A stretch of DNA of 64,000 nt from Candidatus Eremiobacterota bacterium (GTDB taxonomy: Bacteria; Vulcanimicrobiota; CADAWZ01; Ess09-12), in the NCBI GenBank assembly GCA_031082125.1, contig JAVHLM010000030.1:1-64000 (forward strand), read 5' to 3'. Below the pieces are notes generated by a model. The model had not been told where the DNA came from and did no database searches. It was given only the letters and a program-made list of their open reading frames with translations. This document shows positions 19,526-58,897 of this stretch, piece by piece (position 1 is the stretch's first letter; each line of letters opens with the position of its first letter). The translations under genes were made by a program, and so were the position numbers.

Positions 19526-20090
19526 ATGGATCAGATATCAGGACTGAGCGGAATGAGCAATTTTTACTCGCAGATGAGCGCCCTGAGCCCGCAGAGCATG
19601 TACGGCGGCATGAGCGGCATGAGCGGCATGGACATGAGCGGATTAAGCGGTATGAGCGGTATGAGCGGTATGAGCGGCATGAGCGGCATGGGCATGACGG
19701 GCCAGATGGACCCCCAGCAAATGATGCAGATGCAGATGATGATGCAGATGATGATGCAGATGCTGCAGCAGATGACGCAGCAGGGCCAGGGCGCCCTGCA
19801 GGGCCCCCCCGCCTCCTCCGAACTTCAACCAGGCCGACGCCGATGGCGACGGCAACATGACCAAGGAAGAGCTCGCTCAGGACATGAAAAACCATGGAAT
19901 GAACGATGAGAGCAAGGTCGATGAGGTCTATGCCAAAATGGACGCTGATGGAAGCGGATCGGTGAGCGAGAGCGAATTCAGGCAGGGCGCTCCTCCCCCT
20001 CCTCACGGCGGCCAGCAGGGTCAGCAGTGCCAGCAGTGCGGGGCGATGAACGGCATGCAGAATTGCTTCCAGCAGTCCTTCGGGTTCTAG
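19526..20090 (+). CDS. Met-rich EF-hand protein, frameshifted at a C7 tract
   Basis: The gene starts after GAAAGGGG, 8 nt upstream of the ATG. The first frame encodes a Met/Gly/Ser repeat region (multiple GMSGMSG units, then MQMQMMMQMMMQM) and Gln-rich sequence. At the seven-C run 19804-19810 the first frame goes off into an Arg-rich tail ending at 19909. In the +1 frame the protein continues with a proline run and NFNQADADGDGNMTKEEL, a canonical EF-hand, then a second EF-hand KMDADGSGSVSESEF, a Gln-rich tail with CQQC, and a stop at 20090. Removing one C restores a single protein of about 187 residues. It could be a sequencing error, phase variation at the homopolymer, or a real disruption. 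Confidence 0.75.
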
Positions 20091-20145
20091 CTCCTGGAGC
20101 ATGAGCAGTCAGCAGAAACAAGAGTGAGATGAGATTCGATATATG

Positions 20146-20196
20146 AAGGAGGTTTAAGGTTTCCCCCGGCCAGGTGGCGGGGGAAACCGCTATTTT
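20146..20196 (+). promoter_or_regulatory. Perfect Shine-Dalgarno separated from its start codon by an 11-bp hairpin
   Basis: AAGGAGGT lies at 20146-20153. GGTTTCCCCCG (20158-20168) pairs perfectly with CGGGGGAAACC (20178-20188) around a 9-nt loop. Eight more bases reach the ATG at 20197. If the hairpin is looped out, the SD-to-ATG distance becomes about 12 nt. The hairpin could instead be a terminator for the EF-hand gene, followed only by the weak TATTTTA. Confidence 0.5.
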
Positions 20197-21282
20197 ATGA
20201 GTGACAGAACAGGTGATGAAGCGGTAAATCCATTGATAGAAAGCCTCAAAGGGGCATGGTTCGGCGCCACGGGTCCGGGAGACGAAGCCTCTGAAGGCCT
20301 CCCCCTTTCCAGGTCGCCTTATCTTAACGATTTCATCAGGACCTGGAGGAACATGGCCGACGGGAAGGCAACCAGGGAGGAGCTCCGCTCCCAGGCAGGG
20401 GAGCTGTCTTCACGGCTTCGCGGTGCAGAAAAGCAGTTCAAGGCTCTCTATGCCCCTGTGGAAGATGCTCCGCAGATGAAGGAGGTTGCCGGGAAAGCAC
20501 AAAAAGCTTTTAAAGGCTATGAAGAGGCCCTTACTCTGATTGAAAAATATCTTCAGGGCGCCGATGAGACTGTTCTGGCGCAGGGTATCGATAGTGCGAG
20601 AGAATCGGTTGAAAGGCTCTTCGAGGTATATGAGGAATTCGGTGTCCTTGCCAGGGCGCTCTCCGTGAAAACCTGCCCGAAGTGCGGCCGGGAGAATCCC
20701 GCCGAGGCCAGATCCTGCGTCAGCTGCAAGAGCATATTCCCGGTGCTGGTGCCTTCGGTGAACACTGCAAAAACAGGCGCGGCGACCGATATTCTGACGG
20801 GAAAGTTCTCAATACCCTCCTCTTTTCTGAATATTTATGAGGCTATTGAGGGATTTCAGAAGAACGAGATCTCCGGTGACGAGCTCATCGCGATAATTGA
20901 GGCGCTGAGAGCCGTCTTTCACGAAGCAAGGCCCCAGGTTGAGCATATCCTTACGGTTCAGATGGATGGAATCACCACGCCGTCGCCCTTCAAGGACGAG
21001 GTGCTCGAAGCGGGAAAAACCCTTATAGAGGGACTGGATGAAGCGCTGAGCGGCATGGAAGGGCTGATGGCCTTCGCGGTCTCAAGAGACGCCGGGAAGC
21101 TTGCCTCTGCATGGGAGAAGATGCTGGAGAGCGGCCAGCAGATACTGACCGCCAGGTCCAGGTATGGAGAATTATCGGTTGTTCTCGGTGTTGAAAGAGC
21201 GAATCTCCATAGAAGAGCGGCAGATCCGCAGGGAGAAGCAGGCGGGACCCAGGAGGTCGTGACGATATCAGGAGAAGATTAA
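20197..21282 (+). CDS. Zinc-ribbon protein, uncharacterised
   Basis: 361 residues, soluble. Mostly amphipathic helix (coiled-coil or helical bundle) at about 45-150, then a zinc ribbon CPKCG-x10-CVSC with Cys160, 163, 174 and 177, then a second helical region to the end. No signal peptide. It resembles cytoplasmic helical scaffold proteins with an embedded zinc ribbon, but I cannot name the family. It lies downstream of the EF-hand gene, with a hairpin between SD and ATG. Confidence 0.7.
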   Translation: MSDRTGDEAVNPLIESLKGAWFGATGPGDEASEGLPLSRSPYLNDFIRTWRNMADGKATREELRSQAGELSSRLRGAEKQFKALYAPVEDAPQMKEVAGKAQKAFKGYEEALTLIEKYLQGADETVLAQGIDSARESVERLFEVYEEFGVLARALSVKTCPKCGRENPAEARSCVSCKSIFPVLVPSVNTAKTGAATDILTGKFSIPSSFLNIYEAIEGFQKNEISGDELIAIIEALRAVFHEARPQVEHILTVQMDGITTPSPFKDEVLEAGKTLIEGLDEALSGMEGLMAFAVSRDAGKLASAWEKMLESGQQILTARSRYGELSVVLGVERANLHRRAADPQGEAGGTQEVVTISGED

Positions 21283-23836: not shown

Positions 23837-23980
23837 TATCGCTGCCAAAAGAGGTATCATCTTGAGGCGTGTCCGCATCATCGGGCAATGGCGAGGAAAT
23901 TATACCCGCAGCAGTGAAGGATTCGCTCCCCGCTGCGGGGAAAAATGATCCGTGCCTCTCCCATCAACAAGGAGCGTCCG

Positions 23981-26900
23981 ATGAAAAAAATATTCACCTC
24001 CCCAATCCCGCATTTTATAGTAATTCTCCTGGCGCTGCTCCTGCCTCTCTTGCTGACAGGCTGCGGCTCGGGCGGCAGTGATACTTACCTATACTCCGGC
24101 GGAAGCGGGGGAGGCGGAACCGCACCCGCGGCGGTGAAAGGCATAATCCTGAGCCAGAGAGGCATACCTCTCGAAGGTGCGAAGGTCACTGTGGATTCAA
24201 GCCAGAAGGACGTATTCTCAGAAGGCGCCAGGGCTTCCGGGGAAGCATACACCGATTCCGACGGGCTCTTCCAGATCCAGGGCCTCTCGCCGGGAACGTA
24301 CCTCCTCAAGGCCGAAAAGACAGGCTTTGACGATTACTCCAACACGGTGGAGCTCAGCGAAAACGCAGTCACCTTCGAGGACATCACGATGACGGTGAGC
24401 ACTCCCCGGGGAGTCGTCACGGGGCAGGTCACCGATGAGACGTCGGGAAAGCCCCTGGAAAATGTGACAGTCACTGCCGGATCAATTGGCACCAGGACCG
24501 GCACCGAAGGCTATTACCTCATTACAGGCCTTACACCGGGCACCGTGAGCATCACGGCGAGCAAGGCGGGCTATGAGCCTTACACCGGCACCGTCACCGT
24601 GGATCAGGGGAGCGCCGCTCTGAAATCCTTCACCTTGAAGGCCCTTACGACAAGCGGCTCCGTCGCGGGAATGGTGACGGACCAGAATTCCGGAGCGAAG
24701 CTCCAGGGGGCCACGGTCATAATAGGCCAGTCATCGGCTGCTACCGATGTGAAAGGCACATACCTTCTCACCGGCGTCGATGCCGGGCAGCAGACTGTAA
24801 GTTTCACCAGGACAGGCTATAAGCCCGCAAGCGCCACCGTAACAGTCATTGCGGGCAAACTGGCGGTATGCAACGTATCCATGGCGCCTGAAGGTGGCTC
24901 GCCTTCAGGCGCCATCGTGGGCCTGGTCACTGACAAGGATTGGGGGATGGATCTTGAAGACGTGATCATCTCCATCGGCGCCCTCAAAACCTCGACAAAT
25001 GACAGGGGGCTCTACCTTCTCAACGGTGTGCCGCCCGGATCTTATACCCTCACGGCACAGAAGACGGGCTATCAGAACTATTCCGGCACCGTGGAAGTGA
25101 AGGCGGGGGAGGTCACCAGCTTCCCCATCGAGCTGGTCCTCAAGGAGAGGACAGGGTGGGTCTATGGGGATGTCACTGTCAAGGGCACCGGGGAGCCGAT
25201 CCAGGATGCACTGGTTACCATAGGCGACCATAATACGACGACCGATGACTATGGGTTCTATGATCTCACCGGCATCCCCGAGGGTGAGCAGGAAATAATG
25301 GTCATTGCGGCGGGATATGTGAGTTATCAAGGGAAAGTGACTGTCCCTGCAGGTAAGCAGGGTGTCGCCTGCCGCATAGAAATGACTCCGAACCCCAAGA
25401 CCGCAAAGGTATTCGGACGGGTCACCGATTTGAGCACCGGCGAGGTGCTGCCCGATGCGGTGGTCACAATCGGCGCAAAGCAATGTCTGAGCGGCAGTGA
25501 CGGGGAGTATGCAATTGACGGGTTGGATGAGAAGTCCTATGAAATAAGCGCGGTGAAAAACGGCTATGACTACACCCCTGAGACCATCGTGGTGACAGCC
25601 CCGGCAACAGAAAAGAACATAAAGATGACCCCCCGCTCGACGACAGGTGAAGTTGACGGTACAGTCATTGATACCTGGAAGAAAGAAGCCATTCCGGGAG
25701 CCATCGTCATCGCGGGATTCGAGGTGGCCACGACAGACAGAGACGGCCGTTACCGAATAGGAGGCCTCCCTGCAGGCACTGTGAAGATATATGCCATCAA
25801 GCATGCCTACTGGATCTATTCCAGTGAAGTGAAAATTGAGGCAGGCAAGACGACCTCCAGGAATATCGACATGACCCCCCTTACCCTCAAAGGCACTGTC
25901 GCCGGGCAGGTCACTGACAGGAATACCGGCGCCAGGCTGGAGCGGGCCCTTGTGTTTATCGGCTGCACCGATTGCAGGAGCGATGCGGAGGGAAACTACT
26001 CCCTCGACGTGCTGGCCGGGCCACGTCTCATCTTCGCCCTCAAGCATGGCTACGACCCTTACGTCGATCTCGTCTGGGTCACTGCAGCCGATACGCTCAC
26101 CTGTGACATCAGGATGACGCCTTTCTGGGATACCGGCGAGGTGACGGGCGTGGTCACCGACAGCCAGTCCGGCTCGCCCCTGGAAAACGCCAAGGTCGCA
26201 ATCGGCGCCACGAGCGTTCTCACTGACGGGCGCGGTTATTTTGAGCTGGACGGCATAATCGCGGGAACGAGGACCATCATAGCCTCCAAGGCGGGATACG
26301 CCGGTTACACGGGCTCGGTGGCAGTTCAGGGCAGTGCGGCGACCTCCTGCAATTTCTCGATGACGCCTTACCCTTCAGCGGGGAGCGTCTCTGGAACGGT
26401 AACCGACAGTGTCACGCAAAGGCCTGTGGAAGACGCCACAGTTTCCATCGAGGCCACGAAGGCATACACCGACAGCGAGGGGAGGTATAGGCTCGCCGGC
26501 ATCGCCATCGGAAGCAGGACCATCAGAGTTGTCAAAACTGGCTATCAATCATCATCTACCATGGTGACCGTGGTCTCCGGCACGACTACCTGCAATGTGA
26601 CCCTTGCTCCCGAAAGCACGTCAGGCTCCATAGAAGGCACGGTAACTGATGCAGCCACAGGGCAGCCGATAAGGGACGCCGAAGTGAGGGGGGACGATGC
26701 CGCAGCCACCACCAGTGAGAGCGGAAGGTACAGTCTTGCCGGCCTGCCGGCAGGGGAGTGCATGATCACTGTCACCAGGGAGGGATACACGGACGGTGCC
26801 GCAACAGTCACCGTAAGGGCGGGGGAGACGGTCACGAAGGACTTTGCACTCAGCCCATCGCAGGGATCAGGCACCCTCCAGGGCACCGTGACAGATTCAG

Positions 26901-27388
26901 CCTCAGGCAAGATCCTCCAGGGGGTCCTGGTCGTCGCCAGGGGGCCCGATGGAGGTCAGGCCTATACCGACAAGAGCGGCTTCTATAAAATCACCGGCCT
27001 CAGCGCGGGGACCTTCACCGTGGAGGGCACCCTCAGCGGTTACAATGCATACTCGGGCAGCGTGAGCGTCGCTTCAGGGAGCACGGTGACCCATTCCTTC
27101 ACGATGACGGTCCTTTCCAACAAGGGGACCCTCAAGGGTACGGTGACGGACTCTTCCACCGGCGCTTCCATTGCCGGTGCGAGGGTCACCTACGCCGACA
27201 GAACAACTGAGACCGACACCAATGGGAATTATGAGCTTGTCGGCGTGCAGCCGGGAAACAGGGATTTCTCCGTCACCAGGGCGGGTTATGCCGACGTGAA
27301 CGAAATACTCAAGGTGCAACCGGGCGAGACTGTCACCAAGAACGTCCAGATGACACCGCTTCTGAGACAGGTCCTGTACCGGTGGTGA
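23981..27388 (+). CDS. Lipoprotein of 13 tandem carboxypeptidase-regulatory-like domains
   Basis: 1135 residues from the ATG at 23981, chosen because AAGGAG lies about 7 nt upstream; an in-frame ATG 36 nt earlier has no site. The lipobox is LLLTGC. After a Gly-rich linker come 13 beta-sandwich repeats of about 80 residues. Each starts with a GxVTDxxTGxPLxxAxVxIG-like strand pair, continues with TDxxGxYxLxGLxxG and ends near MTP. Such prealbumin-like domains build long rigid rods in surface adhesins or substrate-binding proteins; no catalytic domain is attached. One plausible role is surface adhesion or carbohydrate binding. Repeat-to-repeat identity is moderate, so the array is old. Confidence 0.88.
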   Translation: MKKIFTSPIPHFIVILLALLLPLLLTGCGSGGSDTYLYSGGSGGGGTAPAAVKGIILSQRGIPLEGAKVTVDSSQKDVFSEGARASGEAYTDSDGLFQIQGLSPGTYLLKAEKTGFDDYSNTVELSENAVTFEDITMTVSTPRGVVTGQVTDETSGKPLENVTVTAGSIGTRTGTEGYYLITGLTPGTVSITASKAGYEPYTGTVTVDQGSAALKSFTLKALTTSGSVAGMVTDQNSGAKLQGATVIIGQSSAATDVKGTYLLTGVDAGQQTVSFTRTGYKPASATVTVIAGKLAVCNVSMAPEGGSPSGAIVGLVTDKDWGMDLEDVIISIGALKTSTNDRGLYLLNGVPPGSYTLTAQKTGYQNYSGTVEVKAGEVTSFPIELVLKERTGWVYGDVTVKGTGEPIQDALVTIGDHNTTTDDYGFYDLTGIPEGEQEIMVIAAGYVSYQGKVTVPAGKQGVACRIEMTPNPKTAKVFGRVTDLSTGEVLPDAVVTIGAKQCLSGSDGEYAIDGLDEKSYEISAVKNGYDYTPETIVVTAPATEKNIKMTPRSTTGEVDGTVIDTWKKEAIPGAIVIAGFEVATTDRDGRYRIGGLPAGTVKIYAIKHAYWIYSSEVKIEAGKTTSRNIDMTPLTLKGTVAGQVTDRNTGARLERALVFIGCTDCRSDAEGNYSLDVLAGPRLIFALKHGYDPYVDLVWVTAADTLTCDIRMTPFWDTGEVTGVVTDSQSGSPLENAKVAIGATSVLTDGRGYFELDGIIAGTRTIIASKAGYAGYTGSVAVQGSAATSCNFSMTPYPSAGSVSGTVTDSVTQRPVEDATVSIEATKAYTDSEGRYRLAGIAIGSRTIRVVKTGYQSSSTMVTVVSGTTTCNVTLAPESTSGSIEGTVTDAATGQPIRDAEVRGDDAAATTSESGRYSLAGLPAGECMITVTREGYTDGAATVTVRAGETVTKDFALSPSQGSGTLQGTVTDSASGKILQGVLVVARGPDGGQAYTDKSGFYKITGLSAGTFTVEGTLSGYNAYSGSVSVASGSTVTHSFTMTVLSNKGTLKGTVTDSSTGASIAGARVTYADRTTETDTNGNYELVGVQPGNRDFSVTRAGYADVNEILKVQPGETVTKNVQMTPLLRQVLYRW

Positions 27389-56980: not shown

Positions 56981-58897
56981 GTTTCAATCCTTGTTTTTAT
57001 GGAATCGGCTCTGGGACCAGCCACTCAGATAGATGGGTGCAGGGTAGCCAAGTTTCAATCCTTGTTTTTCTGGAATCGGCTCTGGGACTCACCCAGAGAG
57101 CCGGCGCCGCCGTGGATTTTCTGGGTTTCAATCCTTGTTTTTCTGGAATCGGCTCTGGGACAAGCATTACCAGTAGGGCATCCCCGGAGAAGTGGTGTTT
57201 CAATCCTTGTTTTTCTGGAATCGGCTCTGGGACAGGTGCACCCCCGCACCATACACCGAGATATGGTGAGTTTCAATCCTTGTTTTTCTGGAATCGGCTC
57301 TGGGACGAGAAGACCACGGTGAGCATCAAGGAAATAGATCAGTTTCAATCCTTGTTTTTCTGGAATCGGCTCTGGGACCATGCACAAGAACATCTATCTC
57401 GCCCACATTCATCTTGTTTCAATCCTTGTTTTTCTGGAATCGGCTCTGGGACCCCTGCAGTGGGAAACGGCCAATACAAACCCCTATAGTTTCAATCCTT
57501 GTTTTTCTGGAATCGGCTCTGGGACCAGGGTTGCCGATAGCCACCCCACTCTCCCGATGCTGTTTCAATCCTTGTTTTTCTGGAATCGGCTCTGGGACTG
57601 ATACAGGCGGGGTGAAGTATAATATCACTGTCGGTTTCAATCCTTGTTTTTCTGGAATCGGCTCTGGGACACGAGGCACTTCCACGGGGCAGATATTTAC
57701 ATTCACGTTTCAATCCTTGTTTTTCTGGAATCGGCTCTGGGACAAGCATTACCAGTAGGGCATCCCCGGAGAAGTGGTGTTTCAATCCTTGTTTTTCTGG
57801 AATCGGCTCTGGGACGGAAACTCACCGGCAACATCCTTGCTGACTATAGGTTTCAATCCTTGTTTTTCTGGAATCGGCTCTGGGACCAGCAGTTGCAGTC
57901 GGAAACAACTGCACAGTGTAGTTTCAATCCTTGTTTTTCTGGAATCGGCTCTGGGACCTCATCGATGCCACGAACAGCGCGAATGCCTGGAAGTTTCAAT
58001 CCTTGTTTTTCTGGAATCGGCTCTGGGACCAGAAGCAGACGTAATGAGCAGAAGGTGGTATCGTGGTTTCAATCCTTGTTTTTCTGGAATCGGCTCTGGG
58101 ACTGTGTCCTGCGAATCCATCACCCTGGATTATAACAAGTTTCAATCCTTGTTTTTCTGGAATCGGCTCTGGGACTGAACTGAAAAGCCAGTTGCTTCAC
58201 CGGCATGAAGGTTTCAATCCTTGTTTTTCTGGAATCGGCTCTGGGACATCACGCCTCACCACGGCCATGCGCCTGCTCGCCCGGTTTCAATCCTTGTTTT
58301 TCTGGAATCGGCTCTGGGACCGCATTGCCCGCGTGGAGCTTGAGCAGCGATGGGAGTTTCAATCCTTGTTTTTCTGGAATCGGCTCTGGGACAATTCAGA
58401 GGGGTGGCAAATGACAGAAAATGAGTAGTTTCAATCCTTGTTTTTCTGGAATCGGCTCTGGGACCAGGTTCTCGATCTCGTGAGCCTGCATGGTCTGGGT
58501 TTCAATCCTTGTTTTTCTGGAATCGGCTCTGGGACTGTTGTGCTTGTTGGGATTGGCGAGCAGCCATCTCTGTTTCAATCCTTGTTTTTCTGGAATCGGC
58601 TCTGGGACGCAGAAGATACTTTTCAGAGGGGCAGACGAGCCCAGTTTCAATCCTTGTTTTTCTGGAATCGGCTCTGGGACGTGGATAGCCAACTGCGTGA
58701 GCGCGGCGATGGCTGGTTTCAATCCTTGTTTTTCTGGAATCGGCTCTGGGACGCCCTGCCCGTGGAATACAAGGCAAATCCCAAGTAGTTTCAATCCTTG
58801 TTTTTCTGGAATCGGCTCTGGGACGGGGATTCCAGCATAAAACCACAGCTTTCACCTGGAGTTTCAATCCTTGTTTTTCTGGAATCGGCTCTGGGAC
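56981..58897 (-). CRISPR. CRISPR array: 27 repeats of 37 nt, 26 spacers
   Basis: On the plus strand each repeat begins GTTTCAATCCTTGTTTTTCT and ends GGAATCGGCTCTGGGAC. Repeats start at 56981, 57052, 57125, 57197 and then about every 71-73 nt to 58861. Spacers are 34-37 nt. All repeats are identical except the first (56981), which has ttAT instead of ttCT at 56999. Read on the minus strand the repeat ends in ATTGAAAC, the usual 8-nt 5' handle of type I crRNA, so transcription runs right to left, from the cas side. The mutated repeat at 56981 is thus the trailer end. Spacer 3 (57162-57196) and spacer 11 (57744-57778) are identical. Confidence 0.99.

Follow-up and report, generated by a model that had tools for sequence, protein, structure and literature searches.

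Introduction

The primary work on the split ribosome binding site (RBS) of phage T4 gene 25 is reportedly that of Nivinskas (1999) and of Malys and Nivinskas (2009). A review documents structure-bridged ribosome sites for two phage T4 genes (PMC3014915). In gene 25, a hairpin between the Shine-Dalgarno sequence (SD) and the AUG cuts the spacing from 27 to 11 nt, and in gene 38 an intervening structure cuts it from 22 to 5 nt (PMC3014915). According to this review, mutations that destabilise these structures lower initiation; the gene 25 arrangement was tested by lacZ fusions and DMS probing, and is described as confined to close T-even phages (PMC3014915). Hairpins at cistron junctions are also known from the E. 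coli gal operon, where the galE E-hairpin is described as lying past the galE stop codon, close to a site of pausing and Rho-dependent termination, and as protecting the mRNA of the first cistron at its 3' end (PMC9239205). Our literature search recognised no bacterial chromosomal example of an SD-hairpin-ATG layout, which is a weak negative.

Here we analyzed a 64,000-nt stretch of the chromosome of a Candidatus Eremiobacterota bacterium (contig JAVHLM010000030.1, positions 1 to 64,000; hereafter the window), in which an earlier note had pointed out a hairpin between the SD and the start codon of one gene. From comparison of sequences, we propose that this junction, which lies within a two-gene operon of the chromosome, is a structure-bridged (accommodated) ribosome binding site, and we assign this reading a probability of roughly 0.6.

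Layout of the junction in the window

The features of the junction, all on the plus strand, are as follows. C5 denotes a paralogous operon in the same genome.

19526-20090, plus strand: gene 1, a Met/Gln/Gly-rich N-terminal frame (19526-19909) and then an EF-hand frame (19857-20090), from ORFs and a domain search
20088-20090, plus strand: gene 1 stop codon TAG, as far upstream of AGGAGG as its C5 counterpart
20146-20153, plus strand: SD AAGGAGGT, read from the sequence and consistent with the genome-wide enrichment of AGGAGG 4-12 nt before starts
20154-20157, plus strand: TTAA, the 4-nt gap between SD and stem (TAAA at C5)
20158-20168, plus strand: 5' arm of the hairpin, GGTTTCCCCCG, 11 bp, from sequence and fold
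20169-20177, plus strand: hairpin loop of 9 nt, from sequence
20178-20188, plus strand: 3' arm of the hairpin, CGGGGGAAACC, from sequence and fold
20189-20196, plus strand: GCTATTTT, the segment from stem to start and a weak terminator tail, from sequence and terminator score
20197-21282, plus strand: gene 2 ORF (P0001) of 361 aa with its ATG at 20197, from the ORF call, homology and predicted fold

The perfect 11-bp hairpin reported in the earlier note was located at 20158-20188, wholly between the SD and the ATG, with every element in place. The coordinates also agreed with the distances given in the note, since 43 nt separate the SD from the ATG and subtraction of the 31-nt hairpin leaves 12 nt. 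Its further statement that no rival SD exists was borne out for the 20 nt immediately upstream of the ATG, which contain no SD except for the G-run of the hairpin arm. No start codon (ATG, GTG or TTG) stands at usable distance downstream of the window SD in any frame, the nearest to one being an out-of-frame GTG at +21, and a promoter scan of the window found no promoter-like site between gene 1 and gene 2.

The window SD lies inside a tiny frame at 20143-20157 (ATG AAG GAG GTT TAA), whose TAA stands just 5' of the hairpin. The SD of the C5 operon likewise lies inside a tiny frame whose TAA stands just 5' of the hairpin (GTG AAT ACA GGA GGT TAA; locus L034, G000:C5, 2015-2032). These frames may be a coincidence or may be leader peptides.

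Gene 1 appears to carry a frameshift in the C7 run near 19803, and its Met/Gln-rich and EF-hand frames overlap; slippage, an error in the assembly or pseudogene status could account for this. The predicted fold of the gene 2 protein, at a modest mean pLDDT of 71.8 and pTM of 0.41, is largely helical and has four cysteines in a central motif. The motif is zinc-ribbon-like. The zinc-ribbon matches fell mostly under the curated cut-offs, and at the Pfam zinc ribbon cut-off P0002 passes and P0001 fails.

Elsewhere in the window, a 1147-aa ORF (23945-27388) is built of many similar repeats, which resemble carboxypeptidase-regulatory-like repeats. In a search of the whole window against Rfam families at the gathering score, the hairpin was unmatched, and the sole match was a CRISPR direct repeat (CRISPR-DR7) at 56981-57017 on the minus strand.

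A paralogous operon with the same layout

After itself, the best match of gene 2 was in the same genome, at C5:159077 (34% over positions 12-327); full-length alignments of the two proteins gave 31-32% identity. The gene preceding it resembles gene 1 in its N-terminus and Met/Gln-rich stretch. At the C5 junction, AGGAGGT is followed by TAAA, then by a stem of 14 bp that includes one G-U pair, and finally by GTTTTTT and the ATG. The distance from AGGAGG to the ATG is 49 nt, and with the hairpin looped out it becomes 11 nt, compared with 12 nt in the window. Both junctions combine an over-long SD distance, no alternative SD or start, and a stable hairpin (11 and 14 bp) lying wholly between SD and AUG that would restore the spacing to 12 and 11 nt.

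The two stems were compared pair by pair. Eight of the 11 window pairs are identical at C5, which has three further pairs. Compensatory double changes were found at pair 2 (G-C in the window, A-T at C5) and pair 11 (G-C and C-G), and pair 8 is C-G in the window and a U-G wobble at C5. The 4 nt from SD to stem and the 7-8 nt from stem to ATG are common to both operons.

The distance from the gene 1 stop to AGGAGG is exactly 56 nt in both operons. Within these 56 nt, 17 of 56 positions agree, compared with 15.0 +/- 3.2 in shuffles. This is the shuffle level, indicating that unconstrained sequence there has been randomised. Since the flank has diverged beyond resemblance and the SD, stem and spacing still match, the latter appear to have been held. 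Retention of the layout in a distantly diverged duplicate suggests, as far as sequence can tell, that the layout matters.

Folding strength and chance expectation

The window junction folded at -31.1 kcal/mol over 101 nt (z -2.71) and at -27.7 kcal/mol over 71 nt (z -3.69), and in each case 0 of 200 shuffles was as low. A stem of at least 11 bp arose within the 43-nt window spacer in 16 of 5000 dinucleotide shuffles, and the stem of the C5 spacer was equalled in 4 of 5000.

In the 71-nt fold, the window stem is extended by pairing of SD-adjacent sequence with the ATG region. Ensemble predictions in longer context gave an unpaired probability of 0.09-0.51 for the window SD and 0.01 for the A and T of the ATG; at C5, pairing took in part of the ATG and the three leading bases of the SD. 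This predicted partial pairing of SD and ATG counts against bridging, and because of it we kept inhibition as a reading, in which initiation is blocked by the stem or its extension as long as this is neither melted nor bound by a protein such as the gene 2 product. The four cysteines of gene 2, conserved without exception across the alignment (12 of 12 homologs), would suit such a role; however, RNA binding by this protein is purely hypothetical and the zinc-ribbon matches lie mostly under the cut-offs, as described above. Moreover, the core stem includes neither the SD nor the ATG, and the extension is weak and differs in its details at C5. We therefore consider an inhibitory or regulated hairpin improbable.

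SD usage and survey of the genome

The genome comprises 7.43 Mb in 69 contigs, of which 2.46 Mb, deliberately including the window and C5 loci, was surveyed with genes called by a simple longest-ORF rule. AGGAGG occurred 158 times at 4-12 nt before ATG (1466 starts), or 17.6 per position versus a background of 1.05, so that canonical SDs are in use in this genome. An exact match to the 16S rRNA 3' end (anti-SD) was not found in the assembly, and hence the use of the anti-SD is supported here through this enrichment. At 41-50 nt before starts, AGGAGG was near background (1.9 per position), so that a remote SD by itself is unremarkable. What exceeds chance is the conjunction of features and its recurrence in the paralog, rather than the SD alone.

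Within 48 nt upstream of the first start, 12 of 1937 ORFs had a stem of at least 11 bp, versus 32 of 20,000 random windows. A stem of at least 9 bp no more than 70 nt upstream was present at 56 ORF starts; of these, the SD followed the hairpin in 13, and 40 had no SD by the patterns used. A strong SD solely before the hairpin was present at three of the 56: the window, C5 and C1:478748. The last was rejected as a false start, being a TTG within a terminator-like tail, with prepilin-like sequence starting further downstream. We also set aside C7 193624, where, judged by eye, the ATG is preceded by an in-frame TTG that has a normal distance to the SD, and other weak matches judged by eye to be short stems inside coding sequence or to have the SD within the stem. 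A motif search of the genome returned 18 matches (11 forward, 7 reverse), of which only the window and C5 paired properly on inspection by eye. No third convincing bridged case was found in the 2.46 of 7.43 Mb surveyed.

Terminator scoring

The hairpins were scored as intrinsic terminators by the d'Aubenton-Carafa score d. A value of d > 0 was obtained for 20 of the 100 intergenic regions between convergent genes, 46 of the 514 between co-directional genes and 1 of the 225 between divergent genes; the excess of convergent over divergent regions indicates that the score discriminates in this genome. The C5 hairpin, a GC-rich stem followed by a U6 tail, scored d = +2.4 and has the form of an intrinsic terminator. 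The window hairpin, with its broken tail GCTATTTT, scored d = -23.5, below what is expected of one, and was not reported by a terminator scan of the window. On these sequences, the C5 hairpin may terminate some transcription and the window hairpin probably does not.

These scores bear on a second reading, in which the hairpin is an intrinsic terminator or attenuator that ends gene 1. It and the U-tract would stop the majority of transcripts, gene 2 would be expressed from readthrough only, and the hairpin would lie between SD and ATG by accident or as a compact overlap. The C5 score argues for it, as do the hairpins that relatives often carry between the two genes (see below). The window score argues against it, and termination alone leaves unexplained why the order of SD before hairpin, the 4 nt from SD to stem and the 7-8 nt from stem to ATG were kept. 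Overall, we regard this reading as unlikely, if the foremost of the rivals. Since it fits C5 but not the window, the feature common to both operons is the SD-hairpin-ATG geometry. Because termination fails by score for the window and not for C5, the bridging hairpin may have a dual role and perhaps also be an attenuator or a stabiliser of mRNA ends. The stricter proposal, that one hairpin in a cellular chromosome is both the transcription attenuator of gene 1 and the ribosome-site bridge of gene 2, is doubtful to about the same degree as the terminator reading.

Relatives and phylum-wide searches

Relatives of gene 2 were sought in 58 genomes, in which the family of this genome was represented by this genome itself. 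Matches (E <= 0.001) were found in 32 of the 58, this genome counted, and two scans of genome contigs yielded no relatives of gene 2. Homolog loci of the relatives were compared at the first possible start, a crude choice of start. A hairpin of at least 8 bp lay within 250 nt of this start at 16 of 27 loci, and one ending within 26 nt of it at 0 of 27. The hairpins in relatives often follow a small Gly/Met-rich ORF, as at L114, L118, L119 and L124. At these four loci, from family f13 genomes, the small Gly/Met-rich ORF, a GC-rich hairpin and the gene 2 homolog recur together, and no SD was found by the pattern used before the first possible gene 2 start.

A degenerate pattern allowing up to 3 mismatches matched in 18 of 149 phylum genomes. 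When the fetched loci were scanned for architecture, the layout appeared at the two loci of this genome only, plus one case (L099) that was dropped as weak, with a 7-bp stem and a 56-aa ORF. A covariance model built from both copies, in an alignment imperfect at one window stem position, was searched against the same 149 genomes and found the window, C5, the C5 reverse strand and three places in genome G005. The G005 matches were rejected, as no SD adjoins the hairpin there. As to conservation in relatives, which the earlier note had proposed as a check, the layout is kept in the C5 paralog, with two compensatory pairs across two paralogs of one genome, but it was found in no further genome among the 149.

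The inter-gene hairpins of several relatives leave the RBS untouched, so the hairpin may have another primary job. From these sequences, the hairpin between the two genes may be the older element and its merger with the ribosome site lineage-specific. A further reading is mRNA stability: once processing or Rho termination has occurred, the hairpin would shield the gene 1 segment against 3'-5' exonucleases, and gene 2 would be weakly translated. The hairpin's place at the end of the first cistron, the precedent described for the E. coli galE hairpin (PMC9239205) and the similar intergenic hairpins of relatives are consistent with this; however, it predicts neither an SD just 5' of the hairpin nor a near-constant looped-out distance in both operons. 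We judge it the least probable of the readings considered.

Discussion

Among the three readings that the earlier note raised, bridging is the best supported, because the diverged paralog keeps the SD, the 4-nt gap, the stem, the 7-8 nt and the ATG with compensatory changes; termination is disfavoured for the window by its score but not for C5. Under the bridging reading, genes 1 and 2 are probably co-transcribed, and in a readthrough mRNA a strong SD would stand 43 nt upstream of where gene 2 starts. The hairpin would fold out of the mRNA path in the cell and bring the SD to about 12 nt from the AUG. The 30S subunit would then pair with the SD and set the AUG in the P site, with initiation presumably at this ATG. 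Expression of gene 2 would depend on the folded hairpin, which would also mark the end of the gene 1 segment and may set the ratio of gene 1 to gene 2.

If bridging is correct, the window provides a chromosomal case that was kept while the proteins of a duplicated operon diverged to about one third identity, suggesting that cells use this layout too. Start-site prediction that expects the SD within about 12 nt could then misjudge such genes. With the window and C5 as a pair, it could be tested in a simple way how the 30S subunit makes room for a hairpin of 31-37 nt beside the SD helix. If the dual element were real, docking of the 30S subunit on the SD and folding of the terminator would compete or cooperate on the nascent RNA, and transcription readthrough would be tied to initiation.

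Compared with known systems, the junction shares with intrinsic terminators a GC-rich stem followed by T-rich sequence, most clearly at C5. Unlike them, the window hairpin has no proper U-tract, has a negative score, and stands with an SD directly upstream and an ATG directly downstream. It resembles the galE E-hairpin in lying near a cistron junction, but that hairpin, as far as the source describes it, bridges no SD-to-AUG interval (PMC9239205). The likeness to T4 gene 25 is closer in that the window and C5 hairpins are intercistronic, narrowly distributed and would shorten an over-long spacing (from 43 to 12 nt in the window, and to 11 nt at C5). The differences are that the present case lies in a bacterial chromosomal operon, is known from sequence alone, has a longer spacing and hairpin, and is terminator-like at C5. 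As in T4 gene 38, the intervening structure of the window would draw the SD near the AUG, whereas gene 38 is a phage gene with a shorter intervening structure.
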